A stretch of DNA of 64,000 nucleotides. Source: Methanomassiliicoccus sp. (GTDB taxonomy: Archaea; Thermoplasmatota; Thermoplasmata; Methanomassiliicoccales; Methanomassiliicoccaceae). Position 1 is the first letter of the stretch; the number at the start of each line of letters is the position of its first letter. Shown here piece by piece: positions 45,395-50,799 of this stretch. Location: assembly GCA_018262895.1 (NCBI GenBank), contig JADFDJ010000005.1:62001-126000 (forward strand). Reading direction: 5' to 3'. Under the pieces are notes generated by a model. The model saw only the letters and a list, made by a program, of their open reading frames with translations, searched no databases and was not told where the DNA came from. Made by a program: the position numbers and the translations under genes.

Positions 45395-46102
45395 TCAATC
45401 CCTCTCCGGCAGATAGAGGTTACTGGCATCAAGGTAGCCGATGAGGTCCCCCACACTGCCGATTATCGATCGGCATCCATACCTTTCCCAATCCGCCCTC
45501 GTGAAGGAGCCGGTGAGAACTCCCAGGAAATGGACCGAGGCCGAGGCCGCGCACTCCATGTCCATGGCATGATCTCCCACCAGAAGGCATTCCTGGGGTC
45601 GGACCTCCATCAGCGCCATGGTTCGCTCCAGTGCCTTTCCGTTGGGCTTGGCCTCCTCTTCCGGATGATCGTCACGGCAGACCATGGCATTGAAGGGGAT
45701 GTCTATTCCCGCATGATGCAGTGCCGCCTCAGCATACGCGCGGGAACCTCGGGTGAGCAGGCCTATCTTGATGCCCCTTTCCTGCAGCGACCGCAGGCAC
45801 CCCAGGGCGCCTTCGATGGCCTTCGTGCCGCCCACACCCTCCATCTCCGTCCCGTTCATGGACCTGGTGACCGCTGCCCCGATGCGCTCCAGATCTCCAG
45901 CGTCCCCGTTTTCAATGACATATTGACGCATTAGGGCGAGGCTTCTGGACATGGTCGTTTTCTCATCAAGAAGGTATGAAGGTATCCCCTCTTCGATGAA
46001 AACCTCGAAAAGCTTCCTCTTCATGAGGCGGAAGTCAACGGTAGTATGGACAAGGGTCCCGTCGAGGTCGAATATCGTTCCTTTGACAGCCTGTTTCTCC
46101 AT
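45395..46102 (-). CDS. HAD-family phosphatase
   Basis: A 235-residue haloacid dehalogenase superfamily hydrolase. Motif I is IFDLDGTLVHTT with the nucleophilic Asp, a cap of about 70 residues (RLMKRKLFEVFIEEG...) is inserted after it, motif II is GLLTRGS, motif III is a Lys in AKPNGKAL, and motif IV is LLVGDHAMDMECA. The substrate is unknown; phosphoglycolate-type small phosphate esters are typical. The ATG at 46102 (MEKQAVKGTIFDLDG) is chosen because upstream residues of the longer frame are unlike the family. Confidence 0.85.
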   Translation of the reverse strand: MEKQAVKGTIFDLDGTLVHTTVDFRLMKRKLFEVFIEEGIPSYLLDEKTTMSRSLALMRQYVIENGDAGDLERIGAAVTRSMNGTEMEGVGGTKAIEGALGCLRSLQERGIKIGLLTRGSRAYAEAALHHAGIDIPFNAMVCRDDHPEEEAKPNGKALERTMALMEVRPQECLLVGDHAMDMECAASASVHFLGVLTGSFTRADWERYGCRSIIGSVGDLIGYLDASNLYLPERD

Positions 46103-46309
46103 CGAATGACCGCCTCTTCGCGCAAATAACATCCTGCTATTTAGACCGTAGGCATCTAATATTATCAAAATATATACTTTCTAATGGATGGCTCAATATT
46201 ATTATTTATCAATAACAATGGGAAATATAAAACTATTGGTAGCATGCTCAACAACTTCTTTTATATTTACTGAGACAAAGGGATGTACATACTCGGATTA
46301 GGTGAAGAA

Positions 46310-46699
46310 ATGAAAACGAAGACCCTCATCATGTTCGGTTTGGCCGCCCTTTTACTTGCGGCGTTCGGAGTGACCGTGATCGCAGCGAACCTGGCGACAG
46401 GACCGTTTATCATACCCGGAATCGATCCGCATATCATCCCCGGCATCGATCCCCACATCATACCCGGAATCGATCCGCATATCATCCCCGGCATCGATCC
46501 CCACATCATACCCGGAATCGATCCGCATATCATCCCCGGCATCGATCCCCACATCATACCCGGAATCGATCCGCATATCATCCCCGGCATCGATCCCCAC
46601 ATCATACCCGGAATCGATCCGCATATCATCCCCGGCATCGATCCCCACATCATACCCGGAATCGATCCGCATATCATCCCCGGCATCGATCCCCACTAA
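46310..46699 (+). CDS. Exported protein made of twelve identical octapeptides
   Basis: A 129-residue protein from the ATG at 46310. The N-terminus MKTKTLIMFGLAALLLAAFGVTVIA is a clear signal peptide or anchor (two Lys, a hydrophobic stretch, Ala-rich end). After LATGPF come exactly twelve copies of IIPGIDPH, ending at TAA. Each unit has an aliphatic pair, a PG turn, and Asp and His that could bind metal; the pattern predicts a regular beta-solenoid or an extended array. A TATA-like TTTTATATTTA lies at 46259-46269. No similar protein is known to me. It might be a surface or metal-binding protein, or a peptide precursor; no processing enzyme or exporter gene is adjacent. Confidence 0.8.
   Translation: MKTKTLIMFGLAALLLAAFGVTVIAANLATGPFIIPGIDPHIIPGIDPHIIPGIDPHIIPGIDPHIIPGIDPHIIPGIDPHIIPGIDPHIIPGIDPHIIPGIDPHIIPGIDPHIIPGIDPHIIPGIDPH
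46409..46696 (+). repeat. Six perfect tandem copies of a 48-base unit
   Basis: Each unit is two 24-base codings of the same octapeptide that differ only at silent positions (ATA/ATC, GGA/GGC with ATC kept, CCG/CCC, CAT/CAC). The 24-mers strictly alternate and the six 48-mers are identical, so the array grew recently by unequal exchange or slippage of the 48-base unit. Copy number may vary between strains. Antisense frames are also open through the array, purely because of its 3n periodicity. Confidence 0.95.
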
Positions 46700-46949: not shown

Positions 46950-47945
46950 TCAGCCGGTGATCGTGAACTCCTCCTGGTTCAGCAGCATCCAGTAGATCGC
47001 GTGCAGCATCTTGCGAGCGGTGGCGATCCTCGCCACCTGCTTTCCTTTCTTCTTCGCCAGCTTGCGGTAGAACGCCGACAGCTTCGATCCAGGACAGCAC
47101 CACAGATGGACATTCACCGCCTCCACCATCATCCACCTCAGATGCCTGGAGCCCTGTCTGGAGATGTGGCCGTAGTAACAGGAGGACGAGGACTGATGCA
47201 CCGTCGGCGTCAAGCCGGCGTACGAGCACAAGTGCTCGGCATCCTCGAAGCGACGCACATCGTCGATCTCCGCGGCGATGAGCATGGCGCCGTAGAACCC
47301 GATGCCCGGCACCGTGGCGATGAGCTGCGCGTCCCCCATCTCCTCGAATCTCGTCAGTAGAACGCGGTTCACCTCCTTGATCTGCGCCTGCAGCGCCTCC
47401 ACCATGTCCAGGTTCCAGGCGATGGTGCGAACGTTCAGCGAGCGCATCCAGGCCACGGCGGCAGAGCTGAACGGCGATTGCAGCGTCTCCGGCCGCTTGA
47501 TGCCTCGCCGGAGAAGCTCGGCGTGCACGCGGTTCTTGAACGCCGTGCTCTTCTCCACCAGCGCCTTGCGGTGGCGAAGAAGCTCGCGGAGGTCCCTGAC
47601 CTCGCGAGACGGCACGTGCGATGCCGGTACCATGTCCAGGTACAGCAGTCGAGCCAGAGTGCGCGCGTCCACCTTGTCCGTCTTGACCTTCGCCGAGGCT
47701 ATCGCTTTAACCTTGAACGGATGTGCGAGAACGACCTCGAACCCGCGCGCCTCCACGATGCCGTACACGTACTCCCAGACCCCGGTAGATTCGAGGACGA
47801 ATCTCGCCTCCTCGAATCGATCGAGGAAGCGGTTGAGCGCGTCGGCGGTGGTCGGCACGCGCTCGTTCCCCAGCTCGTCGCCGTCATCGTTCAGAACACT
47901 GGCCTGACAAAACTCTTTATGGACGTCCAGTCCTACATATAGCAC
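46950..47945 (-). CDS. IS110/IS1111 family transposase
   Basis: A 331-residue recombinase. The N-terminal DEDD RuvC-like domain begins MLYVGLDVHKEFCQAS (first Asp), with VLESTGVWEY (Glu) and TDKVDARTLARLL (two Asp). The C-terminal transposase domain contains ATVPGIGFYGAMLIAAEI, YAGLTPTVHQSSS with the catalytic-type serines, and GSRHLRWMMVEA. The length is typical and no frameshift is present, so the element could be active. GC content is higher than in neighbouring genes. Confidence 0.95.
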   Translation of the reverse strand: MLYVGLDVHKEFCQASVLNDDGDELGNERVPTTADALNRFLDRFEEARFVLESTGVWEYVYGIVEARGFEVVLAHPFKVKAIASAKVKTDKVDARTLARLLYLDMVPASHVPSREVRDLRELLRHRKALVEKSTAFKNRVHAELLRRGIKRPETLQSPFSSAAVAWMRSLNVRTIAWNLDMVEALQAQIKEVNRVLLTRFEEMGDAQLIATVPGIGFYGAMLIAAEIDDVRRFEDAEHLCSYAGLTPTVHQSSSSCYYGHISRQGSRHLRWMMVEAVNVHLWCCPGSKLSAFYRKLAKKKGKQVARIATARKMLHAIYWMLLNQEEFTITG

Positions 47946-48027: not shown

Positions 48028-50799
48028 TCAAACGCTTATGTTAGCCAAAGCCAGCTCGACCTCTCTTTTAAGGTTCTCCGCCGCTCCGGCCGTTGAGATC
48101 TGCAAGGCTTCCTGCAACAGGCCTTTGGCGCCGTCCTTATCCCCGCTCTTAATGAACTGTTGTGCGATCTCGTATAGCCATCTTCCTAGGAGGAGCGGTG
48201 CATCCATCCGTCTTATGGTACCAAGGGCATCGGCGAACTCCTCCTTGGCCCACTCCCATTCCATCTTCTTGTTGTAAATGTAACCCTGCATAAGGTGCAT
48301 GTCGGCGATCAGGATGGGATTATCTAGCTTCTGAAAAATCTTGGTCGCCTGGCTTATGTACTCCTTGGCCTTCTCCAGCTCATCCATCTCCACATATACG
48401 ACGACAGCGTTTCTAAGGGCATAGCCCTGCAGCTCCAGGTTACCGGAGGTTCGACCCATCTCCACTGCCCTCTCATGATACTTGGCCGCCTCCGAGAAGT
48501 TGAAGACCTCTGCCAGGCTGGTTCCCACACCTATGCATATCCTGGCGATGTTATCCACATCGCCGGTTCGCTCCAGGACCTCCAGCGCCTCCTTCTTGTA
48601 CCTGATGGCCTGCTGGTGGTCAAGGGTCGTGGAGTACACCCTGCCTATTCCGTATAGTGCCATCCCCAGCCCGATGTCGTCAAGGCTCTTCTGGGCCAGC
48701 TCCATGGACCTCTTGAAAGCGGCCATCGCATCCTGGTGTCGGCCACGGCTTTGGAGCACACCGCCCAGATCATAATAGGTCTCGACCAGCGTATGTGGGT
48801 CCTTGACCTCCTCGGCGAGCCCCAGGCTTCTCACCAGGTAGTCCTCCGCCTTCTCGAACTCGGAACGCCGCAGGTGTATGACCCCTATCCTGCGATTGAC
48901 CTCGGCCAGCAGTCGTCGGTCGTGGTCCGGCTCACACAGCCTTACGATCTCCTCGAACCTGCTTATGGCCCTGTCCCACTCCCCCCTGACCTCCAGGATA
49001 TCCCCTTCCAGAAGTAGCAGCTCCATCTTCTCGCTACGATCTATGTTGTCACATTGCGACTGCAGGGAGGTCAGCAGTGGGGCGAACGGCAGGCCGTATC
49101 CCTTGGAGATGATGTCCCGCCCGTTACCGGCGGCTATGCGAATGGCTGTGCTGTACTCCTTGGCCATGAGGCAATGGTAGAGCGCTTCCACGTGGGCCGG
49201 GGCCGATGTGTCCTGAAGATAATAACGTGAAGCTGCCTTGTGGTAGGTTATCCGTTGTCGGGGAGAGAGCCGGGAGTAGAAGAAGTCCCGCAGCAGGTCG
49301 TGCATTCCTATCATGCGGCCTACTGACTCATGCATGAGCGATTTTGATAGGAGAACGTCGATAGTGTCGTAGTCTACGAGATAGTCCTTGTACTCCATCT
49401 CCTTCTGGACCACACCAAGGTCCTTGGCGATCTCCTCCTCGATGGTGAAGAAGGCGTCCACCAGGACCGGATACCGGAACACGGAAGCAATGTCCAATAT
49501 CCTTCTCTCAGTTATGTCCAGCTTGGAGTAGACCTCCTGCTCGATGAACATTCGGACGTTCTTCCCCAATGCGCTCCTGGGGCTGTCCACGAGCTCCAGG
49601 AACAGGGGATGTCCGCGAGTGGCCCGATATATGTCAAGAAGGTCGGCCTCGGGAAGCTCCCGATTCCGCATGAGGCGGAGGGAGCTGTCCATGTCCAGCC
49701 CCTCCATCATCAACTCCACCACCAAGCCCTTGAACACCTGGCTCCGGGAATAGAAGGAGGGGATCTCCCGGGAGGTGCAAATGAGAGACACGTGCTCCAA
49801 CCCCTCCAGCACGCCCACCATGGCAGTGAGGAAATCCTGGACCGAGCGGTCCGCCTTGTGAACGTCATCGATTATGAACACTGTGGGGATGTCCCGCAGC
49901 TCCATGTCCAGGATCGTCGAGACCTCACCTATGGAGGGATTCTCGGTGCGGGACAGGTAGCGTTCCAATCCCTTTTTGCCCAGCTGAGAGAGGAACTCGG
50001 CAATCGGTGTCAGGAGGATCCTGAGGTTGACCCATTCGTGGACCCTGTACCAGAATACGTTCCTCTGGTCCCGGATATCCTGGACGAACTTAGCCAGCAG
50101 TGTGGTCTTTCCGATCCCAGGTATGCCGCATACGGCCATCAGACGCGCGTTCGGGGAGTCCAGGAACTCAGACAGGCTCTGTAGCTCTTTCTGCCTCCCG
50201 AAGAATACCCGTACGGTAGGCTTTCGGTCGGTATAGTCTACGAACCGGCGGTCCGCTTTCACCTTCCCCTCGTGGAAAGCTGAGCAGTCGAAGCGGCCCC
50301 TGGATACGCCCAGTGCCAGGTCCAGGAACGCGTACCTCTTGGGGAGATAGAGGGAAAGCTTCCCCATATTGTCCTCGTGCACCTTTCCGTCGAAATCTAT
50401 GATGGTGATGGGGGTCCGCTCGATCTCCGCCTTAAGTTCCAGGGCCTTCTGATAGCCACCAGCAGTCAGAAAATAGACTTTTTTAACGCTCGCATAGCCC
50501 TTGACATGCTTGGTGTGAACCTCGATGATCGACTCTTCGGCCAGAGAGTTAACGACCTTGGAGACATTGTTACGACCGATATCTATGGCATCTGCTATGC
50601 CTTCCTGCGTAATCACCGCTGGAGCATCAGAGTCCTGTTGGTATCTCTGATAGCTGAGGAGGTGAAGGACGACTCTCTCCCTGACAGTAAGCAGAGTCTT
50701 TTTAGATGACCGGTTCACCGGAAGAACATAAGGGTCTGAGACAAAATATTTTTCGAGTAAAAAATGAGCATGCTCAAATCGATTATATATATCGCACAA
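48028..50799 (-). CDS. STAND-type regulatory ATPase with wHTH and TPR repeats
   Basis: A 923-residue signal-transduction protein. Residues about 35-120 form a winged helix (VITQEGIADAIDIGRNNVSKVVNSLAEESIIEVHTKHV). About 200-450 form an NB-ARC/AAA_16 ATPase (FFGRQKELQSL, Walker A GIPGIGKTT near 226-234, Walker B VFIIDDVH). About 560-915 contain at least eight TPR units such as VETYYDLGGVLQSRGRHQDAMAAFKRSM. It is probably a ligand-controlled transcription regulator. The frame begins at a TTG (50797-50799) that overlaps a TATA-like ATTATATATAT, so the real start may be further in. It is divergent from a DUF835 gene. Confidence 0.88.
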   Translation of the reverse strand: MCDIYNRFEHAHFLLEKYFVSDPYVLPVNRSSKKTLLTVRERVVLHLLSYQRYQQDSDAPAVITQEGIADAIDIGRNNVSKVVNSLAEESIIEVHTKHVKGYASVKKVYFLTAGGYQKALELKAEIERTPITIIDFDGKVHEDNMGKLSLYLPKRYAFLDLALGVSRGRFDCSAFHEGKVKADRRFVDYTDRKPTVRVFFGRQKELQSLSEFLDSPNARLMAVCGIPGIGKTTLLAKFVQDIRDQRNVFWYRVHEWVNLRILLTPIAEFLSQLGKKGLERYLSRTENPSIGEVSTILDMELRDIPTVFIIDDVHKADRSVQDFLTAMVGVLEGLEHVSLICTSREIPSFYSRSQVFKGLVVELMMEGLDMDSSLRLMRNRELPEADLLDIYRATRGHPLFLELVDSPRSALGKNVRMFIEQEVYSKLDITERRILDIASVFRYPVLVDAFFTIEEEIAKDLGVVQKEMEYKDYLVDYDTIDVLLSKSLMHESVGRMIGMHDLLRDFFYSRLSPRQRITYHKAASRYYLQDTSAPAHVEALYHCLMAKEYSTAIRIAAGNGRDIISKGYGLPFAPLLTSLQSQCDNIDRSEKMELLLLEGDILEVRGEWDRAISRFEEIVRLCEPDHDRRLLAEVNRRIGVIHLRRSEFEKAEDYLVRSLGLAEEVKDPHTLVETYYDLGGVLQSRGRHQDAMAAFKRSMELAQKSLDDIGLGMALYGIGRVYSTTLDHQQAIRYKKEALEVLERTGDVDNIARICIGVGTSLAEVFNFSEAAKYHERAVEMGRTSGNLELQGYALRNAVVVYVEMDELEKAKEYISQATKIFQKLDNPILIADMHLMQGYIYNKKMEWEWAKEEFADALGTIRRMDAPLLLGRWLYEIAQQFIKSGDKDGAKGLLQEALQISTAGAAENLKREVELALANISV

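Follow-up and report, generated by a model that had tools for sequence, protein, structure and literature searches.

In the RRNPP(A) systems of the Bacillota (Rap-Phr, PlcR-PapR, NprR-NprX and AimR-AimP), a small gene for an exported propeptide adjoins the gene for an intracellular TPR regulator, and the peptides are short and lineage specific. Propeptides of this group that carry several pheromone copies have been documented (PMC11343458). The RRNPP(A) receptors consist of an HTH domain, or none, and five to nine TPRs that form a C-terminal ligand domain, with no NTPase. A second group for comparison is that of the MalT/LuxR-type STAND regulators, in which a STAND NTPase is joined to a TPR-like sensor; MalT senses maltotriose and has its DNA-binding domain at the C-terminus. 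Yeast alpha-factor-type precursors consist of a leader and then several identical peptide copies with spacers, the receptor being a GPCR. We know of no paired peptide gene for the STAND-TPR protein 6mfv, and no archaeal peptide-receptor system was found in the open-access journal literature searched.

In this study, we examine a gene for a repeat-peptide precursor (REP) and the neighbouring regulator gene c0 in Methanomassiliicoccus sp. The window, meaning the whole stretch of DNA that was analysed, is 64,000 nucleotides long, and its features are collected in Table 1. The pair resembles the RRNPP(A) systems in that a small gene for a propeptide, whose export is predicted from its leader, adjoins a gene for a TPR regulator, in the lineage specificity of the short peptides, and in the TPR superhelix of c0, a candidate ligand domain whose model is similar to Rap-pheromone complexes. 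It differs in being archaeal, in the convergent orientation of the genes, in having up to 12 identical peptide copies and a palindromic promoter element shared by both genes, and in a candidate receptor of about 900 residues that holds a STAND NTPase between winged helix and TPR; the kinship amounts to a match in TPR fold. Because the receptor architecture differs, the REP-c0 pair is not a member of the RRNPP(A) group, although it is RRNPP-like in logic. From MalT, c0 is distinguished by its N-terminal winged helix and by the repeat-peptide gene with which it is paired. The likeness of REP to the yeast precursors is an analogy of layout only.

Table 1. Features of the REP-c0 locus and the associated small RNA
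Feature	Position	Strand	Basis and remarks
HAD hydrolase	45395..46168	-	Divergent conserved neighbour of REP; border of the locus
TATA-like box (aaatataaaa)	46223..46232	+	Upstream of the element, at a distance that is conserved
Promoter element TAGCATGCTCA before REP	46240..46250	+	32 upstream regions aligned, AGCATGCTC unchanged in all 32 genomes
Second TATA-like stretch (TTTTATA)	46259..46265	+	Fixed spacing downstream of the element
Alternative in-frame REP start	ATG 46283	+	Possible start
REP, repeat-peptide precursor gene	46310..46699	+	129 aa; ATG 46310, TAA 46697-46699; ortholog comparison
REP leader, residues 1-33	46310..46408	+	Basic N-terminus and hydrophobic stretch, signal-peptide/anchor-like (MKTKTLIMFGLAALLLAAFGVTVIAANLATGPF); judged by eye
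REP repeat array, residues 34-129	46409..46696	+	12 IIPGIDPH in tandem; DNA unit of 48 bp, perfect in all six copies
IS110-family transposase	46950..47945	-	Pfam; between convergent REP and c0, both left intact; outside the system
c0 regulator: winged helix, STAND/AAA_16 NTPase, C-terminal TPR superhelix	48028..50715	-	Pfam, alignment, AlphaFold model, Foldseek
c0 start	likely near 50715; ORF open to 50799	-	Predicted start
Palindrome TGAGCATGCTCA in c0 promoter	50765..50776	.	REP element inverted; AGCATGCT at the corresponding place in 28/28 c0 genes
Small RNA (GGGGAAGGTCCayGGGG core, terminator-like hairpin)	G000 contig C28:86389-86510 (L072:6390-6510)		Equivalents L073-L084, L087, L228-L231

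The initial annotation had described the REP product as a secreted protein in which a leader is followed by twelve IIPGIDPH units, encoded by six perfect 48-base units with alternating silent differences. The letters bear this description out, with export predicted from the leader: TRF reported 6.0 copies of the 48-bp unit with 100% matches, and the two alternating 24-mers differ at synonymous sites only. The array occupies a single place in the source genome, and the number of twelve units may be inexact, short-read assembly being liable to miscount 288 bp of perfect repeat. The 24-bp repeat leaves other reading frames open too; openness of the REP frame alone is no proof of coding, which rests on pS greatly exceeding pN across species.

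The ortholog search took in 60 relatives, and REP was found at the same locus across the Methanomassiliicoccales, with one large family lacking it. Same-genus orthologs have 4-12 units of the window's peptide (12, 5, 4, 6, 6 and 8), so that the copy-number variation proposed initially does exist between species. Beyond this genus, in other families too, members of the order encode the same type of protein with a different octapeptide in each lineage, such as TIPLIDPH, AIPFIDPH, SIPLLDPH, SIPFLDPH, IIPGLEPH, IIPGTDPH, YIPMSDPH, VIPGNSPH and NIPGIDPI. The general pattern of the unit is xIPxx[D/E/S]P[H/I]; some units depart from it, for example LPGMTPH in G018. Unit number ranges from 1 (G030) to 12, and the one- and two-unit proteins (the latter in G016, G021, G033 and G036) are about 45-55 residues long. 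Unrelated spacers lie between some of the units in G019, G022, G025, G028, G034, G044 and G017. In nearly all orthologs the units reach the C-terminus or stop within about five residues of it, and similar hydrophobic leaders are present in almost all. An exception is G040 (L048), in which the place between c0 and the HAD gene holds, behind the conserved element, seven copies of a PLPGVGPV-type 9-mer with no obvious hydrophobic leader.

Among units within arrays, pooled pS was 0.60 and pN 0.003 (29 arrays), with synonymous sites near saturation, which confirms that the amino acids are held constant over silent changes. For example, the eight units of G006 have eight distinct DNA sequences and one peptide, and both TCT and AGC codons for Ser occur among the units of G017. 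Among the proteins counted, the 7-residue core is identical within each, save for a single IPGDDPH in G019. A non-coding DNA repeat is excluded by these values, and REP is almost certainly a real, conserved coding gene. The recent expansion suggested earlier holds for the window genome and some others; in most relatives the units are old. A frame broken by a non-3n change in relatives, which the initial annotation had named as a point against the gene, was present in one of about 33 genomes: the array of G027 (L033) is out of frame beyond its third unit, where CCCGGG has become CCGGG by a 1-nt deletion, possibly through sequencing error or decay.

Searches of Pfam, PADLOC and NCBIfam with REP matched nothing meaningful, in agreement with the earlier statement that no described family was known. 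A PDB sequence search aligned REP to the NANP-type repeats of circumsporozoite proteins, which we read as low-complexity resemblance. Because the units keep one peptide within a protein while lineages differ, a many-copy peptide precursor, one of three guesses made initially, is the favoured description of REP. The constant units, their silent divergence and the spacers argue for many copies of one peptide that would be released.

In the loci read, REP is flanked by a divergent HAD hydrolase gene and a convergent c0 gene (830-925 aa); the IS110 element of the window was not seen between the two genes in the relatives read. Pfam matches of c0 to AAA_16, NB-ARC and TPR_MalT were above cut-offs, that to the winged helix HTH_Crp_2 was just below its cut-off, and GxGKTT is invariant in the alignment. 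An NTPase of the NACHT/NB-ARC/MalT class together with a repeat sensor domain places c0 among STAND proteins. The AlphaFold model has a pLDDT of 80, and about 90 in the TPR superhelix. Its best structural match in Foldseek was 6mfv (E 2.3e-16), and the MalT structure 8bob, TPR-peptide complexes of LGN and the Rap-pheromone complexes were also matched. Conservation is lowest in the TPR part, whose mean pairwise identity is 0.43 (0.58-0.66 elsewhere), which is in line with a changing ligand site and equally with the usual behaviour of TPRs.

Wherever a genome of the order has c0 and the junction can be read, REP adjoins it in practically every case, G040 deviating as described. Within the order this adjacency lies inside a long conserved block and is alone a weak argument. 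The conserved neighbours identified encode the HAD hydrolase, a RidA-type protein, an AsnC/TRASH regulator and c0, and no immunity, maturation (maturase) or dedicated transporter gene is conserved among them. A known RiPP family was rejected, there being no conserved maturase among these neighbours.

The promoters of the two genes share an element. Neither this element nor the STAND-TPR regulator, which together give REP its meaning, figured in the initial annotation. Upstream of REP in 32 genomes, a TATA-like box is followed after about 8 nt by AGCATGCTC (usually TAGCATGCTCA) and, after another 8 nt or so, by TTTWATA, and in all 28 c0 promoters the REP element lies inverted (TTTGAGCATGCTA/C) behind a TATA-like box. 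Of the 147 genomes of the order, 34 have the strict pattern and 0 the reversed control, and in 30 the pattern is accompanied by c0. Two genomes have c0 without the strict pattern: in G036 the element is kept before REP and the TATA wording differs, and in G058 the contig starts part-way through REP. Four have the pattern without c0: the contigs of G018 and G056 break off within REP, and G002 and G145 are incomplete. The pattern was found in 0 genomes of family f2 and in 0 of the c0-less G007, G008, G010, G014, G046, G048, G052 and G060; complete genomes without the regulator have no such element. Fisher's test of the association gave P values of 1e-24, and of 4e-5 outside family f2, both of which ignore the relatedness of the genomes. 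Other exact palindromes were mostly inside genes and away from shared promoters, and were taken as chance. The spacing of TATA box and element would suit a repressor.

In several genomes c0 and REP are missing together. Both are gone and the flanks kept in G007, G008, G010, G046, G048, G052 and G060; in G007 and G010 the flanking 440-aa and HAD genes lie nearly side by side, and the element has gone as well as c0 and REP. The genus to which G008, G010 and G014 belong also contains the c0-positive G011-G013. At least three joint losses are counted, from taxonomy rather than from a tree, and a single deletion could remove both genes together. A functional link between REP and c0 is very probable.

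A possible third target emerged from sites of the element apart from REP and c0, which occur in the strict pattern in thirteen c0 genomes and in G002 and G145. Fourteen of these fifteen sites precede a short stretch that resembles a transcript (GGGGAAGGTCCAYGGGG) and in most cases has a hairpin and U-run, G145 being less clear, and the candidate small RNA lies upstream of a Fap7-like kinase gene where readable. A covariance model built from thirteen sites found the RNA in G016, G033, G040 and G056, all outside the model; in each of them an exact AGCATGCTC precedes it and the kinase gene follows. No Rfam family matches the RNA. At another locus, a second, very similar RNA-like core (GGGAAGTTGGAGAAGGTCCrCGGGGACTCCC) occurs without the element in G001, G005, G016 and G036 (L234, L233, L236 and L227).

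Proteins of the c0 type are widespread in the phylum, and in most of the phylum-level c0 neighbourhoods read no repeat-peptide neighbour was seen. Distant c0-like proteins (L129-L135) have neither the element nor an IPxxDPH peptide, and no c0 relatives were found in viral contigs. In f8, a second family of the class, the layout recurs: the c0 homolog is followed 114-157 bp on by a convergent gene for a leader-bearing protein of 71-122 aa, which ends in 2-4 C-terminal copies of a lineage-specific peptide unrelated to IPxxDPH. These peptides include DDPPLDYDYA, TDPPLDYDYW, TGPKPPLDGWDW, DGPHPTDPSNW, DGPHPSEPGSW (x2), EGPHPADNYAW, EGPHPPGDTPW and others. In seven of eleven cases GAGCATGCTCA (six of them the full TGAGCATGCTCA) lies behind a TATA box, 112-132 nt before the start of the peptide gene; the other four peptide genes and the f8 c0 promoters are without the element. 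In G317 this site could serve a divergent CheY-like gene as well. That the layout returns with unrelated peptides argues most strongly for a conserved pair, which would consist of a TPR regulator and a multi-copy exported peptide. In other families, c0 homologs (L169, L171 and L174, in G474, G401 and G455) are followed by a convergent gene for a leader-bearing protein of 86-90 aa, with an Asp-rich TSP3-like domain and a variable C-terminus, a possible related pairing.

An SBP_bac_5 peptide-binding protein is encoded in 29 of 32 c0 genomes, the other three being 67-82% complete. It is absent from the c0-less G007, G008, G010 and G014 and, apart from one fragment, from f2, and is also present in the c0-less genera g20/g22. 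This distribution is suggestive only as regards peptide import.

From these data we infer a circuit in which REP would be the exported precursor of a short linear peptide of about 7-8 residues, of the IPxxDPH type and in 1-12 copies. Proteases outside the cell would cut the peptide free, an oligopeptide permease would take it up, and the TPR superhelix of the neighbouring c0 would bind it. c0 in turn would bind the AGCATGCT element in three promoters, its own and those of REP and the small RNA, giving an autoregulated, quorum-sensing-like peptide-signalling circuit. We give a probability of roughly 0.6 to REP being the precursor of a peptide autoinducer read by the intracellular regulator c0, and the peptide as ligand of c0 is moderately probable; STAND-TPR proteins are common, and c0 may sense other things.

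Antimicrobial peptide, RiPP, metal ladder and solenoid were all considered beside the peptide signal, which is preferred. REP could instead encode an effector peptide for export, either bacteriocin-like or aimed at the community or host, which c0 controls without having it as a ligand. The shared element and the pairing require regulation only, lineage-specific peptides fit an arms race too, and STAND-TPR proteins accompany some RiPP systems, although the matches to NCBIfam FxSxx_TPR and HaaT are far below cut-off. The absence of a conserved immunity, maturation or dedicated transporter gene among the neighbours identified speaks against such an effector, and a convergent c0 beside an unrelated repeat peptide in f8 fits a ligand-receptor pairing better; we regard it as unlikely.

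Less likely still is a structural or adhesive surface protein, whether an extended Pro-rich stalk or the metal-binding ladder or beta-solenoid of the initial annotation. The leader, the tandem Pro-rich repeats and the alignment to circumsporozoite repeats would suit it, but a structural array is disfavoured because a single unit, unrelated spacers and the loss of Asp or His (IPGNSPH, IIPGLEPH, IPGIDPI) are tolerated. A ladder with multiple invariant ligands was not found, given orthologs of one or two units and the replacement of Asp and His in some lineages, and the one-unit protein, the two-unit proteins and the spacers likewise count against a solenoid. It is very improbable that the leader is an uncleaved anchor through which c0 reads the membrane or secretion state, REP being a feedback sensor with no intercellular diffusion. 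Units at or near the C-terminus would be in keeping with an anchor, but a Sec-signal leader would put the repeats outside, away from a soluble-looking regulator, and the peptide-permease distribution partly tracks c0.

If true, the peptide-signal reading would give the Archaea a type of intercellular peptide signal that has not been described in them before. For about 30 species the sequence yields the predicted peptide, receptor and operator, which makes the proposal directly testable with synthetic octapeptides. The Methanomassiliicoccales include gut and rumen methanogens, and their lineage-specific peptides would permit tests of specificity. We give even odds to a wider reading, in which winged-helix/STAND/TPR receptors and fast-changing multi-copy precursors would form a general archaeal peptide-communication system in the phylum, with one palindromic operator controlling the pair and a small RNA. 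Such a system, if real, would be comparable in logic to Rap-Phr or agr and of independent origin.
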